Of a DNA stretch of 64,000 nucleotides, positions 4,663 to 33,308 are shown piece after piece. The notes beneath the pieces were generated by a model. It saw only the letters and a program-made list of their open reading frames with translations, had not been told where the DNA came from and did not search any database. The stretch is from positions 1-64,000 of the forward strand of contig JAFWNQ010000024.1 of assembly GCA_017510245.1 (NCBI GenBank), read 5' to 3'. How positions within the stretch are numbered: the stretch's first letter is position 1; each line of letters begins with the position of its first letter. Position numbers and translations under genes: made by a program. The stretch comes from Clostridia bacterium (GTDB taxonomy: Bacteria > Bacillota > Clostridia > TANB77 > CAG-508).

Positions 4663-4702
4663 TTTTATATTGTATTTAGAATCAGTTTTTATTACATGAA
4701 TA

Positions 4703-4735
4703 TTATAAAAATGTTATAAAAATGAAATAAAACTT
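4703..4735 (+). promoter_or_regulatory. Phased 11-bp direct repeats (copy A)
   Basis: Two identical TTATAAAAATG units (4703-4713, 4714-4724) and a third, AAATAAAACTT (4725-4735), lie head to tail with an exact 11-bp period. The same arrangement occurs at 15872-15915 and 29090-29122, each time upstream of a surface-protein cluster. One-turn spacing of direct repeats is typical of sites for OmpR/PhoB-type winged-helix regulators, so I read it as an operator. The remaining 4736-4843 holds weak promoter-like hexamers (for example TTGCAA at 4786 and TAGAAT at 4810) and no gene. Confidence 0.6.
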
Positions 4736-4854
4736 GAAAAGACAAGATATATGGTGATGTATACAAAAACAAGTATTTTATATATTTGCAATTAAATGTT
4801 TTTATATAGTAGAATAATATAGGATACAAGTGGGAGAGGTGTTATGATACTTCA

Positions 4855-4989: not shown

Positions 4990-7206
4990 ATGAATCAATA
5001 TGAGTATAATGGAGAACTAATGTCATTATATGCAATAGCACAGAAAGAAGGAATATCTCTTACATCATTGATAAGAGCTTTAGAAAAGGAATCGGATGAT
5101 ATTTATAAGGCAGTTGAAGCAGTGAAAGACAGACAAAGGTTAATAATAGAATATCAAGGAGAAATGCTAACAATTAATCAAATTGCGCAAAGAGAAGGAG
5201 TGAAACCTGCTACTCTTAGAAAAGTATATAATGAATTGGGAAATATAAATGCAGCAGTAGAGCAAGTAAAAGAATCGTTAAGAACTATTCGTGGTAGAAG
5301 AATATCAGTAGAGTATAGAGGAAAAAAGACTCCATTGTCTGTAGTGGCAAGAGAAGAAGGCATAAGATATGTAGCACTTAGAGATGCATATAAAGAGATA
5401 GGAGACTTATCTAAAGCTATAACGCTAGTAAAAGAAAGACAGCATAGGTTTAGAGGAGAATTTGAATATGATGGAGAAAGAATGACTTTATCAGCTATTG
5501 CCAAGAAAGAAGGAGTGACAAATCAAGCTTTAAGTTTAGCTTATGAAGAGACAAAAGATATAATAAAAGCTGTAGAACTTGCTAAATCACGAAAAAGAGG
5601 AAATGGACAAACTTATGAGTACGGCGGAAAACAAATGACAATTCGAGCAATAGCTATTCAAGAAGGAATATCTAGTAATGCACTTAGAAAAGCACTAAGT
5701 GAAGAAACTGACATAATCGAAGCAGTGGAAATAGCAAAGAAAAGGCAAAAAGCTAACGCAGAAAGAACAGTAATAGTAGAATATCATGGAAAAGCCATGT
5801 CTTTAACTGCTATAGCAAGAGAAGAAGGTATAAAACCTGCATCATTAAAAAAAGCTTTTGAAAAGTTAGGAGATATAGAAGAAGCAGTAAGGCAAGTGAG
5901 AGAATCTCAGAGCAGACATAGAGCCAAGAGAACAGCAATAGAATACCATGGAAGAATAATGACTTTAACTGCTATAGCAAGAGAAGAAGGCATAAGCGAA
6001 AGTGGGCTAAGATATCATTATCAAAGATGTGGAAACATTGAGAAAGCGGTTCTATTTACAGGAAGGCAAAAGCGTAAGAAAGAAATTGCCAGTTTACCAG
6101 TAAAATTGGACAATAATGAAATAGATTTATACTCGGCATCTATTATAATAGGAATAAAATACGACAAGTTGCTTAATATGCTTGCAGATGGATTAACAAT
6201 AGAAGAAATAATTTCAATGAAACCTAAAAAGAGTACAACACCGAGATATGGCAAAGGAGATAGTATAGTTCTAGAAAATGGACAATCACTTAAGGACTAC
6301 TGCATAGAAAATGGCTTAAACTATTCTTGTATTCATTATTCAATTTACACATATGGAAAAAGTGTTGATGAAGCAATTGAAAACTATAAAAAACATGGTC
6401 AAAGCATTCCAAAAACATGGATTTATGACAGATATGGGATATTACTAAGGCATCTAATGATAGAAGAACATCTCGATATAGATAGAATAGTCAATAATAT
6501 GAGAAGAGAAATAATATCCATAGATGAAGCTATTAAAAATCAAATCATTTATAGTAATGCTAAAAAGAGTAATTTAGATTTTGAATGGATGCAAGATTTA
6601 TACGAAATACTTAAAGATGAAGATGTGACTGATGAAGAATATAAAAAAAGAATTCAAGAATTCTATGTTGATGAAAAAGAAGAAGAATGTATAGCTAAAA
6701 GTTTTGATGATATAAAAAGGCTTGAAAGAAAACAAGATTTATTTGAGATTGCATATGCAATAAATGAAGGAATATTTACGCCAGAAGAAGAAGAAGAATT
6801 ACTAAGACAGTATTTTGTTACAACAGAAGAAGTGGAATTTATGTTTATAGATTTATTTAGTAGATTTGGAGATGGGGTACTAAGAGGCGAAAAACAAGAA
6901 GAACAACTGAGAATAAATGAAATAAATGATATAATTAGAGGATGGGCATCATTAAGTGAAGAAGAGAGAAATGACACAATAAGTCAGCACAACCTTTCAA
7001 GCGAAGAAATAGATAGAGTAGAAAAACTTTCGAGAAAGATAGAGAGATACAAAGACGTAGTAAAAGATGATAGAGAAAATGATGATGATGAAATACTAAG
7101 GATAATGAGAGCATCTGTAGGTAAAAATGTTGGAAACAATGAAAGCACACGAGCACAGATAAGTAAACCACATGATAGATTACCTAATAAAAATATAGAA
7201 AGCTAG
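4990..7206 (+). CDS. Protein of tandem ~50-residue helix-turn-helix-like (IENR1/NUMOD-like) repeats
   Basis: A 738-residue protein whose first ~360 residues are seven clear tandem units of 48-55 residues. The shared pattern is E-Y-x-G-x-x-M-x-L-x-A-I-A-x-x-E-G-I, then x-L-R/K-x-A-x-x-x-x-x-D-I-x-x-A-V-x-x-A/V-K-x-R-Q, joined by basic linkers. Two or three degenerate units follow to about residue 500, one with 'N-G-Q-S-L-K-D-Y-C-I-E-N-G-L'. This resembles the helix-turn-helix repeat of homing endonucleases (IENR1, NUMOD1), but no GIY-YIG or HNH nuclease motif is visible. The C-terminal third is acidic and helical. The start has GGAG six bases upstream. Inference: a modular DNA- or RNA-binding protein, perhaps the regulator or a partner of the surface-protein operon it heads. 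Function is not known. Confidence 0.7.
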   Translation: MNQYEYNGELMSLYAIAQKEGISLTSLIRALEKESDDIYKAVEAVKDRQRLIIEYQGEMLTINQIAQREGVKPATLRKVYNELGNINAAVEQVKESLRTIRGRRISVEYRGKKTPLSVVAREEGIRYVALRDAYKEIGDLSKAITLVKERQHRFRGEFEYDGERMTLSAIAKKEGVTNQALSLAYEETKDIIKAVELAKSRKRGNGQTYEYGGKQMTIRAIAIQEGISSNALRKALSEETDIIEAVEIAKKRQKANAERTVIVEYHGKAMSLTAIAREEGIKPASLKKAFEKLGDIEEAVRQVRESQSRHRAKRTAIEYHGRIMTLTAIAREEGISESGLRYHYQRCGNIEKAVLFTGRQKRKKEIASLPVKLDNNEIDLYSASIIIGIKYDKLLNMLADGLTIEEIISMKPKKSTTPRYGKGDSIVLENGQSLKDYCIENGLNYSCIHYSIYTYGKSVDEAIENYKKHGQSIPKTWIYDRYGILLRHLMIEEHLDIDRIVNNMRREIISIDEAIKNQIIYSNAKKSNLDFEWMQDLYEILKDEDVTDEEYKKRIQEFYVDEKEEECIAKSFDDIKRLERKQDLFEIAYAINEGIFTPEEEEELLRQYFVTTEEVEFMFIDLFSRFGDGVLRGEKQEEQLRINEINDIIRGWASLSEEERNDTISQHNLSSEEIDRVEKLSRKIERYKDVVKDDRENDDDEILRIMRASVGKNVGNNESTRAQISKPHDRLPNKNIES

Positions 7207-7767: not shown

Positions 7768-8868
7768 ATGGAAAACAAAAGAAATGAATTTTTATTAGAA
7801 AAAGGCATTACATTAGTTGCACTAGTAGTAACAATAATTGTATTACTAATATTGGCAGGAGTTACTCTAAATATAGCTTTAGGTCAGAATAGCCTATTAA
7901 CAAAGGCTAAAAAAGCTAACCAAATAAGCATTTATTCAAATGCAGTAGAACGAGTCGAATTGGCATTGATGTCTTTAAAGTCAGAAATACTAGCACAATT
8001 GGCAAGTAATTCTGAATTTGATTCAACAACTGCAGAAAATACAGAGTATTTAGGAAAGAACATTGTAGAAAAAGAAATTAATGATACTAATAATTGGATA
8101 GTAGACTACAGTAATCCAAGCAGAATATATATAACATATTATAATGATAAGTTAGAGGAAAAAGGAATAGACAATAATACTCCAAAACATGATAAAAAAA
8201 TAGACTTTATAATAGAACTTGACAAACAAGATGCAAATTTATTTGTAAATGAAGGACCTTTATCAACTGATTATCAAGAAGTTGAATATATAGAGAGTCA
8301 AGGAAATCAGTTTATTAATACAGAAGTTATTGGTAAAAATAGCTTAGAGATGCAGGCAAAAATTATGTACACATATATTACAAATGATGGAGGAATGTTG
8401 GGTGCGAGAAATGGTGATATACGTATTTACCCAATGCATGTTTTTCCTAGTAAATTCTGCATAGGATATGGAAGTTATTATTCTTCAGATTTATATGTAG
8501 AAACTAATATAATTTATAATATATATAGTTCTATTTATTCAAATGAGCAAGTTTTATCTGTTGATGGAAATACAATTATGACAAAGACTATAAGCAATGA
8601 ATATAATACTAATTTAAGTTTATATTTATATGCAATTAACAGTAACAATACTGCAAATTATTTCTCTAAATTTAGACTGTATAAGATGAAAATATATGAT
8701 AATAAAAAAATAGTAAGAAATTTTGTTCCATGCTATTGTACTACAGATGTAACAGATACAAGTGGAAAACTATGCCCTAGTGGAACTATAGGGTTATACG
8801 ATTTAGTAGAAAATAAGTTTTTTTCAAATCAAGGAACAGGAGAATTTCTAAAGGGAGAGAATATATAG
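7768..8868 (+). CDS. Pilin-like leader protein with LamG/concanavalin-like domain
   Basis: 366 residues. After a short charged N-terminus comes K-G-I-T-L-V-A-L-V-V-T-I-I-V-L-L, a type IV prepilin-like Gly followed by a long hydrophobic helix, but with Ala where pilins have Glu5. Residues about 28-170 include a helical stalk (S-L-L-T-K-A-K-K-A-N). From about residue 168 a beta-rich domain starts with 'Y-Q-E-V-E-Y-I-E-S-Q-G-N-Q-F-I-N-T', the entry motif of LamG/concanavalin A-like modules common in gut Firmicutes. Predicted to be membrane-anchored and facing outward, possibly processed by the prepilin peptidase at 59646. It has a strong AAGGAG site and is the last gene of the operon that starts near 4.8 kb. 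Confidence 0.7.
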   Translation: MENKRNEFLLEKGITLVALVVTIIVLLILAGVTLNIALGQNSLLTKAKKANQISIYSNAVERVELALMSLKSEILAQLASNSEFDSTTAENTEYLGKNIVEKEINDTNNWIVDYSNPSRIYITYYNDKLEEKGIDNNTPKHDKKIDFIIELDKQDANLFVNEGPLSTDYQEVEYIESQGNQFINTEVIGKNSLEMQAKIMYTYITNDGGMLGARNGDIRIYPMHVFPSKFCIGYGSYYSSDLYVETNIIYNIYSSIYSNEQVLSVDGNTIMTKTISNEYNTNLSLYLYAINSNNTANYFSKFRLYKMKIYDNKKIVRNFVPCYCTTDVTDTSGKLCPSGTIGLYDLVENKFFSNQGTGEFLKGENI

Positions 8869-15858: not shown

Positions 15859-15871
15859 AGTGGAATTATAA

Positions 15872-15915
15872 TAATAAAAATGTAATAAAAATGTAATATA
15901 AATATAATAAAACTA
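15872..15915 (+). promoter_or_regulatory. Phased 11-bp direct repeats (copy B)
   Basis: Four units in exact 11-bp register: TAATAAAAATG (15872), TAATAAAAATG (15883), TAATATAAATA (15894) and TAATAAAACTA (15905). They end 51 bases upstream of the -35 of a good promoter. As in copies A and C, the last unit ends in TAAAACT. Interpreted as an operator for a regulator that binds one unit per helical turn. Confidence 0.65.
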
Positions 15916-15966
15916 TAACTATTATAGCTGTAAAAGTATTTGAATGTATGTAAGTGCTTTGGTGTG

Positions 15967-15994
15967 TTGACATATATTATTCTTTTTATATAAA
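15967..15994 (+). promoter_or_regulatory. Promoter for the second surface-protein cluster
   Basis: TTGACA (15967-15972), 16 bp, TATAAA (15989-15994). It is 61 bases upstream of the pilin-like start at 16056. Confidence 0.75.
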
Positions 15995-16055: not shown

Positions 16056-17366
16056 ATGAAAAATAATAAAGAGACAGGAATCACTTTAATAGCTTTGGTA
16101 GTAACAATAATAGTATTACTAGTGTTTGCTGGTGTGACAATTAATCTCGCATTAGGAAATCAAGGAATAATATCTAGAACTCAAGAAGCAGCTTCTAAAA
16201 GTAAAGAAGAAACAATAAAAGAAGAGGTATCTCTTGCATGGAACGGAGTACAAATAGATGGTATATCAAAAGGATGGGATATTAATCAAAAAGCTTCCAA
16301 ACTAGGAGAAGAGATATCTGCAGAAAGCGTATATGCTGAAGGAAATAATGTACGAGTAGTAAATTATAAAGGTTATGATGTAATTATAAATACAACGAAT
16401 GATGCAATAACATTAAGCGAAAGTGTAGTAATAAATTTTGAAACTATTATGGCAGAAGCAAAAGCAAATAGACAAGGATATGAAGCAATAGGAATTGGAA
16501 CAGATGGTGAATTGGTTGATATGAATTTGTGGTTTTATAATGCTGGGAGCTCTGCAAATACTTTAAATTTAGGAACTATAGGAAGAATTGGGAGTGATTC
16601 ATGGGGGGATGTTACTGGATATAGAGGTGACTTTGTAGATGGAAAAATAATTGGCTCGATTCCACAATATATTATGCCTGAAGGGGAAGAAATCTATTAT
16701 CCTGTTACTGAGTTAAGATCTACATTCAGTGGTTGTATACAATTAAAATTTGCACCTGAAATTCCAAGTACAATAACTAATATGGATAGAACATTTAATT
16801 ACTGCACAAATCTCATATCTCCTCCTAGTATACCAAATAGTGTAACAAATATGAGCAGTACATTTAATTACTGCACAAATCTCATATCTCCTCCTAGTAT
16901 ACCAAATAGTGTAACAAATATGAGCAGTACGTTTAATGGATGCAGTAGCTTAACAACAGCACCAATAATACCAAATAGTGTAACAAACATGGACTACACA
17001 TTTTATGAATGCAGTAGTTTAACAATAGCACCAGAAATACCAAATAGTGTAACAAATATGAATTGGACTTATAGAGATTGTATTAACTTGAGGAGCAGTG
17101 GAGAAATAAAAGCGAACGAAGCGGTACTTTATTATACTTTTAGCGGTTGCAATAATTTGAATTCAACACCAGTAATATCTGGCTCAGTAAAAAGTCTTTA
17201 TGGTGTATTTTCACAATGTGAAAATCTTACTAATGTAAGTAACTTTCCCGCTGGTGTAGAAGACTTGCAAATGACTTTTTATGAATGCTCAAATTTAGTA
17301 TCTATTCCCGACACAATACCAAACTCTGTAACAAAAATGTTTCGGAACGTTTTCTGGATGCAATAA
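16056..17366 (+). CDS. Pilin-like BspA-type repeat surface protein, frameshifted (5' part)
   Basis: The leader G-I-T-L-I-A-L-V-V-T-I-I-V-L-L is pilin-like without Glu5. A stalk region (about 30-150) is almost identical to that of the paralogue at 19027. From about residue 220 come 23-residue repeats of the form I-P-N-S-V-T-N-M-x-x-T-F-x-x-C-x-x-L-x-x-A-P-x (DUF285/BspA-like). The frame stops at 17366 after 436 residues, in the middle of a repeat. Dropping C17343 restores M-F-G-T-F-S-G-C-N-N-L-E-K-A-P and joins this frame to the one ending at 17610, giving a 517-residue protein with the same C-terminus as the paralogue. So this is a disrupted gene, a real variant or a base error. GGAGG precedes the start. 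Confidence 0.75.
   Translation: MKNNKETGITLIALVVTIIVLLVFAGVTINLALGNQGIISRTQEAASKSKEETIKEEVSLAWNGVQIDGISKGWDINQKASKLGEEISAESVYAEGNNVRVVNYKGYDVIINTTNDAITLSESVVINFETIMAEAKANRQGYEAIGIGTDGELVDMNLWFYNAGSSANTLNLGTIGRIGSDSWGDVTGYRGDFVDGKIIGSIPQYIMPEGEEIYYPVTELRSTFSGCIQLKFAPEIPSTITNMDRTFNYCTNLISPPSIPNSVTNMSSTFNYCTNLISPPSIPNSVTNMSSTFNGCSSLTTAPIIPNSVTNMDYTFYECSSLTIAPEIPNSVTNMNWTYRDCINLRSSGEIKANEAVLYYTFSGCNNLNSTPVISGSVKSLYGVFSQCENLTNVSNFPAGVEDLQMTFYECSNLVSIPDTIPNSVTKMFRNVFWMQ
16791..16928 (+). repeat. Perfect 69-bp tandem duplication inside the repeat domain
   Basis: Bases 16791-16859 and 16860-16928 are identical, each coding for one 23-residue repeat unit. Exact identity indicates a recent slippage or recombination event that changes the repeat number. 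Confidence 0.95.
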
Positions 17367-17610
17367 TTTGGAAAAGGCACCTATTATTCCTAATAGTGTT
17401 ACTGATATATCATATACGTTTAAAGATTGTTCCAAATTAACAGGAGATCTTATTATTAATATGAATAATTTAGAAAAGTGGGCAAAGTCTTTGAATGGAG
17501 CAGCAACGGTAGAAGGATGTGACTTAAAAATATCAGGTTCTGCCTCAAGCACTATCTTAACAAAGATTTTAAATACAAAATCAGCTAATTCACACATATC
17601 TTTAAAATAG
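17345..17610 (+). pseudogene. 3' part of the frameshifted BspA-type repeat gene
   Basis: In the +1-shifted frame the code continues with one complete repeat (A-P-I-I-P-N-S-V-T-D-I) and the tail 'S-G-D/T-G-D-L-I-I-N-...-G-C-D-L-K-I-S-G-S-A-S-S', ending 'S-H-I-S-L-K', which is the same end as the protein ending at 20640. It has no start codon with a ribosome site of its own, so it is the cut-off C-terminus of the gene starting at 16056. Confidence 0.8.
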
Positions 17611-17649
17611 ATAATAAAAGATATGAGGTGAATAAATGAAGGAATAAAA

Positions 17650-18969
17650 ATGAAAAAAATCACAAAAAAGTTTATTGAGTATATTGGTATTTTTATTACA
17701 GTATTTTCATTGTTGTTAATGATTTTATTAGCAACAATGAAAATACCAAGAACTGCAATTGAAGATAATCTAAAAAAATCAACAGAGTATTTTAAAAACA
17801 AAGAAATGGTAGAAATGCAAGTAATAAGAAGAGAATATACATATTTACATTTATATTCAGAATCTGTATTATTAAATATAATTAATTATATAGATACAAG
17901 TAATGTGTTAGAGTCAGCGATGCTAGACAGATATTATGAGTCAGAAGCTGTAGATACAAATAAAGACTATATTAATGCAGTTGAGGAGAATATAGAACCA
18001 AATACACAATACTTGCGTTATTGGCATGGAAGTATGGCTATTTTGAGACCATGCCTAATTCTATTTTCTATACAGGAGATTTTTAATATAAATTATATAA
18101 TCATTAATATATTATTCTTAGTTCTTCTTATTATTCTATTAAGAAAAAGCAAAAAACTAGCTTTAATATATGTGATTTCAATGATTATGGTAGCATTCCC
18201 GATAGTAGGAATAAGTCTGCTATATTCTTGGACTTTCTACATAATGATGATAACTTCAATAATTGCAATTTTCATTGAGAGAAAAGGAAATGAAGATTTA
18301 TACAAATTGTTTTTTATTACAGGAATCATAACTTGTTTTTTAGATTTCTTAACAACAGAAATTATAACGTTATATGTTCCAATACTGTTTGTAATGCTTT
18401 TAAGAAAAGAAAGAACACAAGAATTTGATTTTAAAGATAGTTTTAAGTTTGTATTGAAAGCAACTATAATATGGGGAATTGCTTATGCTTCAATGTTTTT
18501 AGCAAAATGGATTTTAGCTTCTATTGTTCTTAGAACCAATGCACTCCAATATGTATCTGATAACTTAAAATTAAGAATTAATGGAACAGAAGGTGTTATT
18601 ACTTTAAAAGAAATGTATTCAAAAGTTATACCACTTAATTTTTGGACATTATATCCAATATGTAACATAAAAGGAATTAAAAGACAACTAAAGATATTAA
18701 GTATAATAGTTTTAACTATAACAATACTAATTGATTGGAAAAAAATAAGGAAAAGTAAGTATGCACTTTTACTAATTGTCATTGCAATAGTTCCATATAT
18801 AAGATACATTATTTTGGCTAATCATTCATACAAACATTTTTTCTTTACATATAGAGAACAAATTATAAGTATAATAGCGCTTGGGATGATTATATGCGAA
18901 TATTTTAATACAAAGTTGTGGTGCAAAAAAATATCAATTAATCATTTGAAAAAGAAAAAAGAAAAATAA
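17650..18969 (+). CDS. Polytopic membrane protein, possible GT-C type glycosyltransferase
   Basis: 439 residues with a first membrane helix at about 10-30 and about nine more after residue 130. Between them is an outward loop of about 100 residues containing 'Y-W-H-G-S-M-A-I-L-R-P'. The long first extracytoplasmic loop with acidic residues and the many later helices resemble lipid-linked-sugar GT-C transferases, but I see no definite family signature. AAGGA is six bases upstream. It stands between the two paralogous BspA-type genes, so it may glycosylate or assemble surface material with them (inference). Confidence 0.6.
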   Translation: MKKITKKFIEYIGIFITVFSLLLMILLATMKIPRTAIEDNLKKSTEYFKNKEMVEMQVIRREYTYLHLYSESVLLNIINYIDTSNVLESAMLDRYYESEAVDTNKDYINAVEENIEPNTQYLRYWHGSMAILRPCLILFSIQEIFNINYIIINILFLVLLIILLRKSKKLALIYVISMIMVAFPIVGISLLYSWTFYIMMITSIIAIFIERKGNEDLYKLFFITGIITCFLDFLTTEIITLYVPILFVMLLRKERTQEFDFKDSFKFVLKATIIWGIAYASMFLAKWILASIVLRTNALQYVSDNLKLRINGTEGVITLKEMYSKVIPLNFWTLYPICNIKGIKRQLKILSIIVLTITILIDWKKIRKSKYALLLIVIAIVPYIRYIILANHSYKHFFFTYREQIISIIALGMIICEYFNTKLWCKKISINHLKKKKEK

Positions 18970-19026
18970 AAAACTTTACTTGGCAATACAAGTGATATAA
19001 AAATAATTAAAATGGAGGAGAAACAA

Positions 19027-20640
19027 ATGAAAAACAAAATGAAAGAAAGAGGAATCACATTAATAGCTTTGGTAGTAACAATAATAGTATTACTAGTGTT
19101 TGCTGGTGTGACAATTAATCTCGCATTAGGAAATCGAGGATTAATATCTAGAACTCAAGAAGTAGCTTCTAAAAGCAAAGAAGAAACAATAAAAGAAGAG
19201 GTATCACTTGCATGGAACGGAGTTCAAGTAGATGGTATATCAAAAGGATGGGATATTAATCAAAAGGCTTCAAAACTAGGAGAAGAGATATCTGCAGAAA
19301 GAGTATATGCAGAGGGAAATAATGTAAAAGTTGTAAACTATAAAGGATATGATGTAATTATAAATACAACGAATGATGTATTAACATTAAGTGAAAGTAT
19401 CTCACCGGAACTTAAAGCGAAAATGGCAGAAGCAAAAGCAAATAGACAAGGATATGAAGCAATAGGAATAGGAACAGATGGTGAACTAGTTGATATGAGC
19501 TTATGGGTATATCATGCATATAATTCATCAATTTCTTTAAGTGGTTTTTCAATTGGAAGCTGGCCAGAAGATGTTTCATCTGGATATATAGGGGAATTTA
19601 TCAATGGGGAAATAATAGGAACTGTACCACAATATATTATTCCAGAAGGAGAAACAGAATTTTATACTGTAACAGATTTATCATATGCATTTAGAAGTTG
19701 TGATGGGTTAGTAAAAGCACCAATAATACCTAATACAGTAACAAGAATGAATTATACATTTTATTGTTGCAATAATTTAGAAATGGCTCCTGAAATCCCT
19801 AATAGTGTAACCGAATTAAGATATACATTTTCAGGGTGTAGAAAATTAATGACTGCTAAATTACCTAATAATATAACAGAATTATATAGTACATTTTCAG
19901 GATGTGAGAGTATGGAAACTGCTCCTACAATTCCTAATAGTGTAATAAGTCTAAATCATACTTTTGTTTCTTGTTATAATTTAACAACAGTTACAATACC
20001 TGATAGTGTTATAAGTTTAGAGGGCACATTTAATGGATGTAAAAAACTAACAACAGTCACGATTCCAAACAGTGTAACAAACTTAAGGTATACATTTTGT
20101 AACTGTGAAAGTATGATTGTAGCTCCTGAGATCCCTAATAGTGTAATAGATTTGGCTGGAGCATTTGCATATTGTTATAATTTAACAACAGTTACAATAC
20201 CCGATAGTGTAACAAATTTGGGGGGATACTATGATGGAACATTTTCCTATTGTACAAGTCTAGTAATAGCTCCAGAGATTCCAGAAGGAGTTACAGATAT
20301 GCAAAATGCATTTTCTTATTGTACGAGTTTGATTAATGCTCCCAATATTCCAAATAGTGTAACAAATATGTACAAAACATTTAATGGATGCAGTAGCTTA
20401 ACAACAGCACCAATAATACCATCAAATGTAACAAGTTTATATTCAACATTTTCACATTGTAATAGTTTATCAGGAGATCTAATAATTAATGCTAATAATA
20501 TATCAGATTATGGATATTGCTTATATAAAGCAGCTACAAATAGTGGCTGTGACTTAAAAATATCTGGTTCTGCATCGAGTAGTATAAAGAATGCTATTCT
20601 TAATACAAAATCATCCAATTCACACATTTCTCTAAAATAA
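19027..20640 (+). CDS. Pilin-like BspA-type repeat surface protein (intact paralogue)
   Basis: 537 residues from ATG 19027; GGAGGAG at 19014-19020 sets this start instead of the in-frame ATG at 19012, which overlaps the ribosome site. The leader is G-I-T-L-I-A-L-V-V-T-I-I-V-L-L. Residues up to about 145 are nearly the same, also at DNA level, as in the protein starting at 16056; then the two diverge. From about 215 about a dozen 22-24-residue repeats of the DUF285/BspA-like leucine-rich type run to the C-terminus, which ends 'S-H-I-S-L-K'. Predicted to be anchored by the N-terminal helix and displayed outside. BspA-type repeats are linked to adhesion in other gut and oral bacteria. Confidence 0.78.
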   Translation: MKNKMKERGITLIALVVTIIVLLVFAGVTINLALGNRGLISRTQEVASKSKEETIKEEVSLAWNGVQVDGISKGWDINQKASKLGEEISAERVYAEGNNVKVVNYKGYDVIINTTNDVLTLSESISPELKAKMAEAKANRQGYEAIGIGTDGELVDMSLWVYHAYNSSISLSGFSIGSWPEDVSSGYIGEFINGEIIGTVPQYIIPEGETEFYTVTDLSYAFRSCDGLVKAPIIPNTVTRMNYTFYCCNNLEMAPEIPNSVTELRYTFSGCRKLMTAKLPNNITELYSTFSGCESMETAPTIPNSVISLNHTFVSCYNLTTVTIPDSVISLEGTFNGCKKLTTVTIPNSVTNLRYTFCNCESMIVAPEIPNSVIDLAGAFAYCYNLTTVTIPDSVTNLGGYYDGTFSYCTSLVIAPEIPEGVTDMQNAFSYCTSLINAPNIPNSVTNMYKTFNGCSSLTTAPIIPSNVTSLYSTFSHCNSLSGDLIINANNISDYGYCLYKAATNSGCDLKISGSASSSIKNAILNTKSSNSHISLK

Positions 20641-20661
20641 TAATATAAAAGGAAAAGAAAT

Positions 20662-21981
20662 ATGCAGAAAGAGAATAAAAAACAAAAACATAATAAAACC
20701 AAAATAATGAAGATTGTAAAAACAATAGTATTTGTTGCTATACTTTTATTATTGGTTGTAATTGTATTTGTGCCTTCTAAAAATAAAAATAGTATTTCGG
20801 ATAAAGAAAAAACTCATTCGGTTAGCATTAACCAAGAACAGCAAACTGAAAAAAATTCGATTCCAAAAATGTTTTTTACAGGTAACATTAATGAAATGCA
20901 AGAAAAATCTGATAAAAGACAAATACAAGTTAAATATGAAAGTGATAATCTAAAATTTGAAAGCTATGCTATATTAAAGGTACAGGGGTCATATACACTT
21001 AAGTTTGATAAGAAAAATTACAATATTACTTTTTATGAAGATGAAGAGTGTAACAAAAAGAAAAAATATGATATGAAATGGGGAGAATATAGTAAATATA
21101 CTTTAAAGGCTAATTGGACTGATCCACTACATTCAAGAAATATTGTAACAGCACAAATAGCAAGTGAGATTAATAAAAAATATGGAATACTAGCAGACTC
21201 CATTAATTATGGACTAACTGATGGATTTCCAATTGAAATATATATAAATAATGATTTTTTAGGATTGTATACATTAAATATTCATAAAGACTACTTGTTC
21301 AATTTAGACGATAAAGATGAGAATAATATTGCTATATTTGCAAATACTCCTGAACCTCAGGCTTTTGAAATTCTTGAAACAGAAGAATGGAATAATTATG
21401 AGTTAGAATTTGGCAAAAATAATGAAGAAACATTAGAAAAATTTAATAGACTAATTGACTTTATTAAAAACAGTAGTGATGAACAATTTATAAATGATTT
21501 TGATAATTATTTTAATAAAGATTCTGTCCTAAACTATTATTGCTTAATGAATTTTGCGCATTTAATAGATAATGTTACTAGAAATATTTTTTTAGTAACA
21601 TATGATGGAAAAGTATGGTACATGATACCATATGATTTTGATCAGTCATGGGGAAATGAATTTAGAGATTATTCGATAATTACAGATTATGAAAATAGAC
21701 ACACTTCATATTATATTCAAATAAGTCCTTTATGGAATAGATTCAAAAAACTATTAAAAAAAGAAATTGATTTAAGATATAAGGAACTAAGAAAAGATAT
21801 TTTAACAAAAGAAAATGTTATTAATAAAATGAACAGTTTTTATAGCTTAATACCCAATAATACACTTGAAAAGGAACAAAAAAAATGGAACAACAAGCCG
21901 GATTATGAAAGAACATATATAAATGAATACCTAGACAATGAATTAATATATCTTGATAGAATATATGGTTTAAGCAAGTAA
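20662..21981 (+). CDS. CotH-family protein kinase-like protein, membrane-anchored
   Basis: 439 residues with one N-terminal membrane helix (about 14-34). The rest matches the CotH fold (spore-coat protein kinase family): 'I-L-K-V-Q-G-S', 'L-K-A-N-W-T-D-P-L-H-S-R-N' with the conserved Asn...Arg-Asn, 'F-P-I-E-I-Y-I-N-N-D-F-L-G-L-Y' and the metal-site motif Y-D-F-D-Q-S-W-G. CotH of Bacillus phosphorylates coat proteins. In this position, next to two repeat surface proteins, the substrate may be a surface protein (inference). AAAGGA precedes the start. It is the last gene of the cluster and ends at a bidirectional hairpin. Confidence 0.85.
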   Translation: MQKENKKQKHNKTKIMKIVKTIVFVAILLLLVVIVFVPSKNKNSISDKEKTHSVSINQEQQTEKNSIPKMFFTGNINEMQEKSDKRQIQVKYESDNLKFESYAILKVQGSYTLKFDKKNYNITFYEDEECNKKKKYDMKWGEYSKYTLKANWTDPLHSRNIVTAQIASEINKKYGILADSINYGLTDGFPIEIYINNDFLGLYTLNIHKDYLFNLDDKDENNIAIFANTPEPQAFEILETEEWNNYELEFGKNNEETLEKFNRLIDFIKNSSDEQFINDFDNYFNKDSVLNYYCLMNFAHLIDNVTRNIFLVTYDGKVWYMIPYDFDQSWGNEFRDYSIITDYENRHTSYYIQISPLWNRFKKLLKKEIDLRYKELRKDILTKENVINKMNSFYSLIPNNTLEKEQKKWNNKPDYERTYINEYLDNELIYLDRIYGLSK

Positions 21982-29012: not shown

Positions 29013-29089
29013 AATAATAAGTTATTATTAACTGCCGAGGAGAATAGTGTGATACTTTAATTGCTAAAAATATTTTAAAGATATAGATG

Positions 29090-29122
29090 TAATAAAAATG
29101 TTACATAAATGTAATAAAACTT
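29090..29122 (+). promoter_or_regulatory. Phased 11-bp direct repeats (copy C)
   Basis: TAATAAAAATG (29090), TTACATAAATG (29101) and TAATAAAACTT (29112) in exact 11-bp register. It matches copy A at about 31 of 36 positions, including the following G. Confidence 0.65.
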
Positions 29123-29149
29123 GGAAACCTTAGGTGGAGTAATTATATA
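29121..29149 (+). promoter_or_regulatory. Promoter adjoining copy C of the 11-bp repeats
   Basis: TTGGAA (29121-29126), 17 bp, TATATA (29144-29149). The -35 touches the last 11-bp unit, the position expected for an activator that contacts RNA polymerase. Confidence 0.55.
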
Positions 29150-29229: not shown

Positions 29230-30693
29230 ATGATAAACAAAAGAGAAGTAAGAATTAAAGAAAAAGGAATTACTTTGATTGCATTAATAGTAACAATCAT
29301 TGTGTTACTAATAGTAGCTGGAATTTCACTAAAAATGGCACTAGGAAATGATGGATTAATAAGCAAAACAAGAAGTGCAAAGAAAATGAGTGAAATTGCA
29401 GACACAATAGAAGATATTAACTTGATATTATATCAATGGCAACTCGTAAAAAACAGAAACAACAAAACATTCGATGAGTATTTAGACGAAAAGGTAGAAT
29501 CAGGAAATCTAGACGATTGGTATTCTAAAAATAGTGAATTATATACTTTAGTAAAAAACGAGTATGAGCAAGACGTTAATGAAAGAGGTAATCTAATTGG
29601 AGAGATAAGACTGGCTAAAAGTTTTAAAGAATATGATTATAAGATTACTTTTAATGCAAATGGTGGTAATTATAAATCAAACAAAAACATAAATACTTTA
29701 ATATATAATAATTACAGTGTAAACAAAAAAAGAGACGTAGTAAAACATCTATATACAAGGACTTTTAATGAAGATGGAGAACAAATAGATACAACAAGTT
29801 CACCTGAAACTGCAATAGAAACAAAAACTGCAAAAATTGATGGAGCCTCTAAACTGAAAATTAATATAAAACATGGAATTGTAGGAACGTTAGGAGCGAT
29901 TAAGTCGGTTCCACAACAGGAGCCATACCTTTGGGAATGTTCCTCTAGTGCACCAGGAACAGAAGAATTTGAAATTGAAGGAGATACAGTTAATTTATTC
30001 TTTGGAGGAGGCCTAGGAGGACTATACAATTATTATGGATACTATGCAACTATAATAGGATATGATTCTGACGGTAATGTTATTCAAGAGGAATTAGAAG
30101 AAAAAGAAAACAAGCTTTTAATAGATAGAGGAAATTATACATTACCAGTAAGATTTGAATCGGCATTTAGAGGATGGTATAGTGATGCAGAGTGTACAGA
30201 TGGAAATGAAGTATTATTCGACAATAATGGAATAATACAAAATCCAACTTCTAAAGATTTGACTGTATATGCTAAATGGGCAACAGAAACCATTTTTAAG
30301 AATTTTAATGGTGAAATAAGAACGGTTACAGGAGTGGCAGGTCCATCAGATTATGATCCAATACCTGCAAAATATTTAAAAAAATCATCAACACCTCCGG
30401 ATTTTGACAACAGTAGTATAATTAGTGAAATTCAAACACAAGATTCAGCATATCCAATTTATTTATGGTATATACAATCTAGTAAAACTTTATATTGGTA
30501 CTGTGAAGTTAGTACAAAAATGCGAGGAGATTATGACTTGTTTTATTTGTGGAAGGACATGGTACTAGTTGATTTTAGAGGCATAGATATGTCAGGAGTA
30601 ACGAGTTTTTCAAGAGATACAGGTTTTTGGTCGGGACATCCTTATGTACTAGACTCACAAATTATTTTTGATGAATCATACCCAGGACAATAG
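29230..30693 (+). CDS. Pilin-like leader protein with InlB-type beta repeat
   Basis: 487 residues from ATG 29230, set by GGGAGGA six bases upstream. The leader K-G-I-T-L-I-A-L-I-V-T-I-I-V-L-L has the prepilin-like Gly, again with Ala in place of Glu5, followed by a helical stalk. The middle is beta-rich with 'Y-K-I-T-F-N-A-N-G-G' and 'F-R-G-W-Y-S-D-A-E-C', the ends of Listeria-Bacteroides (InlB B-type) repeats. The last ~60 residues contain 'L-V-D-F-R-G-I-D-M-S-G-V-T-S-F-S', like the start of BspA/DUF285 repeats, but the protein ends soon after, next to palindromic repeats. The C-terminus may have been shortened. Predicted to be a surface-displayed, membrane-anchored protein. Confidence 0.7.
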   Translation: MINKREVRIKEKGITLIALIVTIIVLLIVAGISLKMALGNDGLISKTRSAKKMSEIADTIEDINLILYQWQLVKNRNNKTFDEYLDEKVESGNLDDWYSKNSELYTLVKNEYEQDVNERGNLIGEIRLAKSFKEYDYKITFNANGGNYKSNKNINTLIYNNYSVNKKRDVVKHLYTRTFNEDGEQIDTTSSPETAIETKTAKIDGASKLKINIKHGIVGTLGAIKSVPQQEPYLWECSSSAPGTEEFEIEGDTVNLFFGGGLGGLYNYYGYYATIIGYDSDGNVIQEELEEKENKLLIDRGNYTLPVRFESAFRGWYSDAECTDGNEVLFDNNGIIQNPTSKDLTVYAKWATETIFKNFNGEIRTVTGVAGPSDYDPIPAKYLKKSSTPPDFDNSSIISEIQTQDSAYPIYLWYIQSSKTLYWYCEVSTKMRGDYDLFYLWKDMVLVDFRGIDMSGVTSFSRDTGFWSGHPYVLDSQIIFDESYPGQ

Positions 30694-31618: not shown

Positions 31619-32674
31619 ATGGAATTAAGTTTTACTAATTATATTGAACAATTAATAAACAAACCGGCATTGCTTGTTATTTCAATTTTGATAATGGGTG
31701 TTATATTGGTCAATGGATGGACAGATGCTCCTAATGCTATTGCAACTTGTGTATCTACCAGAACAATAAGACCTAAAAATGCAATAATAATGGCTGCAGT
31801 TTTTAATTTTCTAGGTGTACTTGTAATGACTATTCTAAGTTCAACTGTTGCTCAAACCTTGTACAATATAGCTAATTTTGGAGATAACTCTAAAAATGCT
31901 CTAATTGCTTTATGTGCAGGAATGGTTGCAATTGTTTCTTGGGCAGTAATTGCTTGGCTATTTGGAATTCCAACAAGTGAAAGTCATGCATTAATTGCTG
32001 GAGTATCAGGTGCAGCAATTGCAATACAACATGGAATATCAGGTATAAGCATGGATGAATGGAAAAAAGTATTATATGGACTAATTATGTCAGCAGTTTT
32101 AGGCTTTGCTTTTGGATATTTTATTACAAAAATAATTGAAAAGATTTGTAAGAACTTTGATAGAAGAAAAACAATTCCTTTTTTTAAAAAACTTCAAATC
32201 TTTAGTGGTGCTTCAATGGCATTTATGCATGGTGCACAAGATGGACAAAAGTTTATTGGAATATTTTTACTTGGAATTTCTTTAGCAAATGGTATTACTG
32301 GAGCAGAAGTATTTGAAATTCCAATATGGCTAATGATTTTGTGTTCAGTAATAATGACACTTGGAACATCAATTGGTGGATATAAGATAATAAAAACAGT
32401 TGGATTAAAAATGGTTAAACTTGAGGCTTATCAAGGAGCTTCAGCTGACATATCAAGTTCGATATGCCTATTAGTTTCAACTCTTTTTGGTATTCCAGTA
32501 AGTACAACACAGGTTAAAACAACAGCAATAATGGGAGTTGGAGCTTCGAGAAACCTATCAAAGGTTAATTGGGGAATAGTAAAGAACATGGTTTTGGCAT
32601 GGATTATAACTTTTCCGGCATGTGGACTATTAGGATATTTAACAACATTTATTTTTATGAGAATATTTGTATAG
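31619..32674 (+). CDS. pit: PiT-family inorganic phosphate transporter
   Basis: 351 residues with about ten membrane helices. The two inverted PiT signatures are present: 'G-W-T-D-A-P-N-A-I-A-T' near residue 32 and 'F-M-H-G-A-Q-D-G-Q-K' near residue 203. It takes up phosphate with a cation. The next gene, a PhoU-like DUF47 protein, is its usual accessory partner and starts 13 bases later. The GWTDAPNA form instead of GANDxxNA is common in Clostridia. Confidence 0.93.
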   Translation: MELSFTNYIEQLINKPALLVISILIMGVILVNGWTDAPNAIATCVSTRTIRPKNAIIMAAVFNFLGVLVMTILSSTVAQTLYNIANFGDNSKNALIALCAGMVAIVSWAVIAWLFGIPTSESHALIAGVSGAAIAIQHGISGISMDEWKKVLYGLIMSAVLGFAFGYFITKIIEKICKNFDRRKTIPFFKKLQIFSGASMAFMHGAQDGQKFIGIFLLGISLANGITGAEVFEIPIWLMILCSVIMTLGTSIGGYKIIKTVGLKMVKLEAYQGASADISSSICLLVSTLFGIPVSTTQVKTTAIMGVGASRNLSKVNWGIVKNMVLAWIITFPACGLLGYLTTFIFMRIFV

Positions 32675-32687
32675 TGAGGAGCGAGTG

Positions 32688-33308
32688 ATGAAAAAAGATG
32701 AATTAGATTATTTTGAAAGATTTAATAAAGATGCAGAAATAGCATTTCAAATGTCAACAATATTGAAAGATTATATATATAGTTTTGATTATAATCAATC
32801 AGAAACAGTAGAAAAGAAAGTTCATAGATTAGAAGTTGATGCCGATAAAAATATGCATAGTATATTAAAATACTTAGTTAAAGATTTCTTACCACCAATT
32901 GAAAGAGAAGACATAGTACTCCTTTCAAACAAACTAGATGATGTAGTGGATAATATTGATGAAATCGTTACTAATCTAGATATATTAGATGTTCAAATTG
33001 TAAGAGAAGATTTTAAAGAATTCATAAAGCTAGTATACAAGATGTGTGAAAAACAAAAAGAGATGATTTTTAAATTTAAGTATTTGAAAAAATATGATCA
33101 AATACATGAAATAGTCATAGAGCTAAATAGACTTGAGGGTGATGGTGACAAACTATATGAAAAAGCTATTATGAATTTATTTATCACAGAACATAATCCT
33201 GTTGAGATAATAAAATGGCAAAAAATCTATGAGAGTGTAGAAAACTTTTATGATTCTTGTGAAAGTGTTGCAAATACAGTTGGAGAAATAATATTGAAGA
33301 ATATGTAA
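32688..33308 (+). CDS. DUF47/PhoU-like Pit accessory protein
   Basis: 206 residues from ATG 32688 (GAGGAG six bases upstream). All-helical, with two PhoU-like three-helix bundles and the acidic metal-binding patterns 'H-R-L-E-V-D-A-D-K' and 'K-L-D-D-V-V-D-N-I-D-E'. DUF47 proteins are encoded beside PiT transporters and are thought to adjust their activity. A weak A-rich/T-rich hairpin (33317-33334) follows. Confidence 0.92.
   Translation: MKKDELDYFERFNKDAEIAFQMSTILKDYIYSFDYNQSETVEKKVHRLEVDADKNMHSILKYLVKDFLPPIEREDIVLLSNKLDDVVDNIDEIVTNLDILDVQIVREDFKEFIKLVYKMCEKQKEMIFKFKYLKKYDQIHEIVIELNRLEGDGDKLYEKAIMNLFITEHNPVEIIKWQKIYESVENFYDSCESVANTVGEIILKNM

Follow-up and report, generated by a model that had tools for sequence, protein, structure and literature searches.

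What are the direct repeats that precede the pilin-like surface-protein clusters of this Clostridia genome? In our best reading of the sequence, some surface clusters have been drafted into the envelope and division regulon of WalR (YycF/VicR). The repeats are probably arrays of WalR half-sites, TGTWAH every 11 bp, which phosphorylated WalR (WalR~P) would bind with activation as the result, tying the pilin-like clusters to wall and division activity; here we infer binding by WalR, activation as its sign and the existence of walR in this strain. The pointers to this general regulator, common in Gram-positive bacteria, where it governs cell wall and division, come from the motif, from the recognition helix and from ftsA, sepF and walR as conserved targets. 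The arrays are not a switch reserved for surface proteins, because they also precede many other envelope and division genes.

In the window, by which we mean the whole stretch of 64,000 nucleotides analysed, the first-pass annotation had described 11-bp-phased direct repeats at three sites. Reading of the sequence confirms them, with the units in exact 11-bp register at all three:

4703-4735: set A, units TTATAAAAATG TTATAAAAATG AAATAAAACTT, each one base away from TAATAAAAATG
15872-15915: set B, units TAATAAAAATG TAATAAAAATG TAATATAAATA TAATAAAACTA
29090-29122: set C, units TAATAAAAATG TTACATAAATG TAATAAAACTT

Sets A and C are identical at 31 of 36 positions, as had been stated, and a shift of 11 gives the strongest self-match in the whole window, the best 22-base comparisons reaching 20/22 in B and 19/22 in A, against at most 18 at the remaining shifts between 5 and 25. 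A shifted register is more telling: it reads TGTAAT AAAAA TGTAAT AAAAA TGTAAT and thus TGTWAH-N5-TGTWAH, the consensus box of B. subtilis WalR/YycF as quoted in PMC9210968, where the WalR regulon of C. difficile was studied. In this register the arrays are as follows:

4690..4739 (+): array A, half-sites TATTAC, TATTAT, TGTTAT and TGAAAT at 4690, 4701, 4712 and 4723 in 11-bp steps, upstream of the gene at 4990 and its cluster
15870..15919 (+): array B, half-sites AATAAT, TGTAAT, TGTAAT, TATAAT and TATAAC at 15870, 15881, 15892, 15903 and 15914 in 11-bp steps
29088..29115 (+): array C, half-sites TGTAAT, TGTTAC and TGTAAT at 29088, 29099 and 29110, a perfect three-half-site WalR-type array

Exact boxes stand at 15881 in array B and at 29088 and 29099 in array C; the boxes of array A at 4701 and 4712 carry one mismatch each. 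The earlier proposal that such repeats, one turn apart and next to promoters, are of the OmpR/PhoB type holds, the motif being the WalR/YycF box.

The genes behind the three arrays are these:

4990..7206 (+): first gene behind array A, encoding a 738-aa protein with helix-turn-helix-like repeats in tandem
7768..8868 (+): pilin-like gene of cluster A, downstream of the genes at 4990 and 7217
16056..17366 (+): behind array B, a pilin-like protein that carries BspA-type LRRs
19012..20640 (+): pilin-like paralogue of cluster B, without an array of its own
29230..30693 (+): pilin-like gene behind array C, its start at 29230 taken from the gene caller

The protein that heads cluster A, of which MTLTAIAREEGI is an example repeat, has weak, overlapping HTH matches as its only ones in Pfam. 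In 16056-21981 a membrane protein lies between the two pilin-like paralogues, of which the first has the BspA LRRs; the gene after them resembles CotH by eye. Further along the window (31619-33308) a PiT-type phosphate transporter gene is followed by a DUF47/PhoU-like gene; the array scan of this genome placed no array immediately in front of the transporter gene (31619). At E<=1e-15 the family defined by the pilin-like N-terminus is greatly expanded, with 25 copies in this genome and 65, 51 and 33 in the relatives G004, G005 and G007, and has no match in G010 and G013. In another relative, G001, a pilin-like N-terminus (L355, C1:72925-73104, minus strand) lies within a 24,406-aa open frame, which occupies about 73 kb of an 81-kb contig and is possibly a giant surface protein.

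Two promoters are predicted beside the arrays from consensus matches only:

15967..15994 (+): TTGACA-16-TATAAA, a predicted promoter with array B 47 bp upstream
29121..29149 (+): weak predicted promoter TTGGAA-17-TATATA, its -35 lying one more 11-bp step along from array C

In array A the next 11-bp step (4734) is TTGAAA, a possible -35, which is uncertain because promoter prediction and our own scan find a better-scoring promoter-like pair at 4786-4815. With this weak TTGAAA or TTGGAA at the next step in A and C, the unit bound last would there be in contact with the polymerase. At the ftsA and sepF promoters the arrays stop shortly upstream of a consensus TTGAC(A/T) -35. The ftsA arrays of relatives (L262, L293, L276) and the sepF arrays (L294, L299 and our own L033) are reversed with respect to the gene, unlike the pilin arrays of the window, which run forward; among orthologues the orientation seems to be kept. 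WalR sites of S. aureus that lie upstream of the -35 are activating whatever their orientation (PMC10746227). For the arrays described here, WalK would phosphorylate WalR, and WalR~P dimers would occupy adjacent half-sites head to tail on the same face of the helix, filling three to five sites; just upstream of the -35, WalR~P would recruit RNA polymerase and activate transcription, and expression of the pilin-like clusters would thereby be coupled to cell-wall and division activity.

How far do the arrays extend beyond the window? Three-unit TGTWAH arrays were counted in 506 kb of the genome (about 40%; 75.9 kb intergenic by our own gene calls) at periods 8 to 16, with periods 8-10 and 12-16 as controls. 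With at most one mismatch, intergenic DNA holds 16 arrays at period 11 and 0-3 at each of the eight other periods; with at most two mismatches the counts are 44 against 4-17. Within genes the same 506 kb has no excess at period 11, with 1 and 13 arrays at the two stringencies. Twelve of the 16 intergenic arrays read toward the next gene, and longer ones exist, with runs of six near-consensus half-sites (C12:40702-40762) and of five (C25:82316-82365). When refined freely, the matrix drifted to a near-palindromic TRTWAY, which scores the opposite strand too, and a fixed consensus was therefore added as a second scorer. The following genes stand behind arrays in this genome:

C12:72448 and C9:80403: two further pilin-like genes
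L033: sepF
L035: SAF-domain, CpaB-like gene
C25:82414: GH25-like protein with a sub-threshold GH25 match
C25:90960: ChW-repeat surface protein
C12:106239-108665: U32 peptidase

Small secreted proteins behind arrays have the look of TasA/camelysin by eye and no Pfam match. N-terminal membrane or signal segments are not significantly enriched behind arrays (p=0.55).

Thirty genomes of the same order were scanned, summing both strands and taking the reversed pattern as control. The genus gives 275 array matches against 125 in the control and families f3-f5 give 183 against 59. Target genes, read from 40 loci behind arrays and annotated with Pfam, include ftsA (families f1 and f5), sepF (f1), mreB, SAF-domain genes and a G5/SLT lytic-transglycosylase gene, as well as dnaN, whose array directly follows the stop codon of a dnaA-like gene. 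Just upstream of walR itself, G026 and G030 each have an array. A related gene of unknown family has an array in both G010 (L285) and our own genome (C24:65405-66295), where a further pilin-like gene follows it directly.

These counts bear on several other explanations. That the repeats arose by chance in an A/T-rich genome is suggested by a window of 71% A+T in which single half-sites are common, but this has next to no probability given an excess confined to period 11 and to intergenic DNA and the retention of arrays at the promoters of ftsA and sepF orthologues; chance is refuted for the whole set, and a single weak array, A above all, could be partly chance. Bent or A-rich DNA might boost the promoters without a specific regulator, as phased A-tracts or UP elements do: the spacers of the window arrays are A5 and recur at roughly one turn of the helix, and A-rich runs about one turn apart upstream of a -35 are common to both. 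We consider this very unlikely, however, as the conserved element here is the hexamer, namely its T-G-T--A, and not the A-run, while the 5 bp between hexamers are poor in information and in many cases T-rich or of mixed composition (for example GCTAG/AGAAA at C25:82338); orthologous promoters likewise keep the hexamers while their spacers vary. The first-pass annotation had proposed a dedicated surface-protein regulon, possibly phase- or signal-controlled, with arrays only before accessory surface-protein clusters. All three clusters of the window do have one, and an array precedes 3 of 12 pilin-like promoters against 10 of 204 others (p=0.027), two of these three being the discovery cases. 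Yet only 4 of the 27 pilin-like genes parsed from 30 own loci carry an array at a score of at least 12, with one at each control period, and 2 of 25 do so in relatives, so that an array is no mark of a pilin. Most arrays serve other genes, at many other promoters here and before division and envelope genes in relatives, and G010 and G013 have arrays without any pilin-like match. A dedicated pilin regulon can therefore be given very little credence, and nothing points to phase variation. The motif is not confined to pilin-like or surface genes.

There remains the identity of the regulator. Direct repeats of 11 bp are sites for many regulators of the OmpR/PhoB family, and this MAG encodes only two such proteins, at C8:32860-33537 (RR1, with its kinase) and at C20:21203-21859, either of which might bind the arrays. 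We judge this unlikely. By score neither of the two is WalR: RR1 reaches 196 bits with the YycF model, and its DNA-binding domain matches B. subtilis YycF (2d1v) at 1.1e-16, far from WalR. RR1 is moreover an unlikely reader because relatives without a close RR1 (G010, G013, G020, G022 and G024) keep the array excess, 90 against 30 when summed; its low YycF score, its distant DNA-binding domain and the lack of a close RR1 in these array-bearing relatives likewise speak against RR1 as a WalR candidate. The target set, too, fits WalR. With the pho boxes of PhoB/PhoP, in which three or more units adjoining the -35 are usual, the arrays share the 11-bp direct-repeat geometry and the regulator family, but the half-site differs, none of the targets seen is a phosphate gene, and the two OmpR-family regulators of this MAG yield no PhoB equivalog (RR1 scores 209 bits against a cut-off of 296). 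A search with the YycF model, in contrast, gives a match in 30 of 31 genomes, which are all 30 relatives, at 296-351 bits in 29 of them; in these 29 the WalR orthologue is clear. In the five relatives examined, YycF is the best NCBIfam model for the response regulator at 306-337 bits, the next best scoring 245-261. The DNA-binding domain of WalR from G022 finds B. subtilis YycF (2d1v) as its best PDB match (1.7e-34), and the recognition helices are nearly identical, RSVDVTIRRIREKIED in G022 and RTVDVTVRRLREKIED in 2d1v.

Several observations nevertheless count against WalR. The YycF model finds no walR in this MAG, which is 82% complete; ftsA and a conserved gene of the walR neighbourhood are absent by search as well, as expected from an incomplete assembly, which fits a gap without proving it, and the missing walR and ftsA probably reflect such a gap. 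Most relatives' WalR, at 296-337 bits, fall below the curated YycF cut-off of 340 bits. In family f2 (G019, G023 and G027) WalR lies above that cut-off but arrays are not in excess (10 against 12 in the control); here the site or the regulon may have changed. Array A fits the box only with mismatches, and exact two-half-site boxes, by plain count, are only modestly above control.

The arrays resemble the WalR boxes of B. subtilis, S. aureus and C. difficile in the half-site, the 11-bp step and the promoter-proximal position; ftsA, sepF, hydrolase-like and envelope genes and walR itself are among the targets, and the relatives have a WalR orthologue. They are unlike the two-half-site consensus box in having three to six half-sites in a row, and unlike the known regulon in that pilin-like clusters and TasA/camelysin-looking genes are among the targets and WalR is missing from the MAG. 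Searching the literature for WalR together with type IV pili returned nothing specific. In motif, spacing, targets and the regulator of relatives the arrays match the WalR/YycF regulon already known from Bacilli; array length and pilin-like clusters as targets are what differs here. WalR-type arrays offer a way of listing the envelope and division regulon of uncultured Clostridia. More tentatively, and with some doubt on our part, long cooperative WalR arrays in these uncultured gut Clostridia might bring selected members of a pilin-like/BspA family that has expanded hugely under the regulator of growth and division, coupling surface display to wall synthesis, with a threshold perhaps tuned by how many half-sites there are. 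Our findings suggest that the expression of some pilin-like surface clusters goes along with growth and is not run by a private switch.
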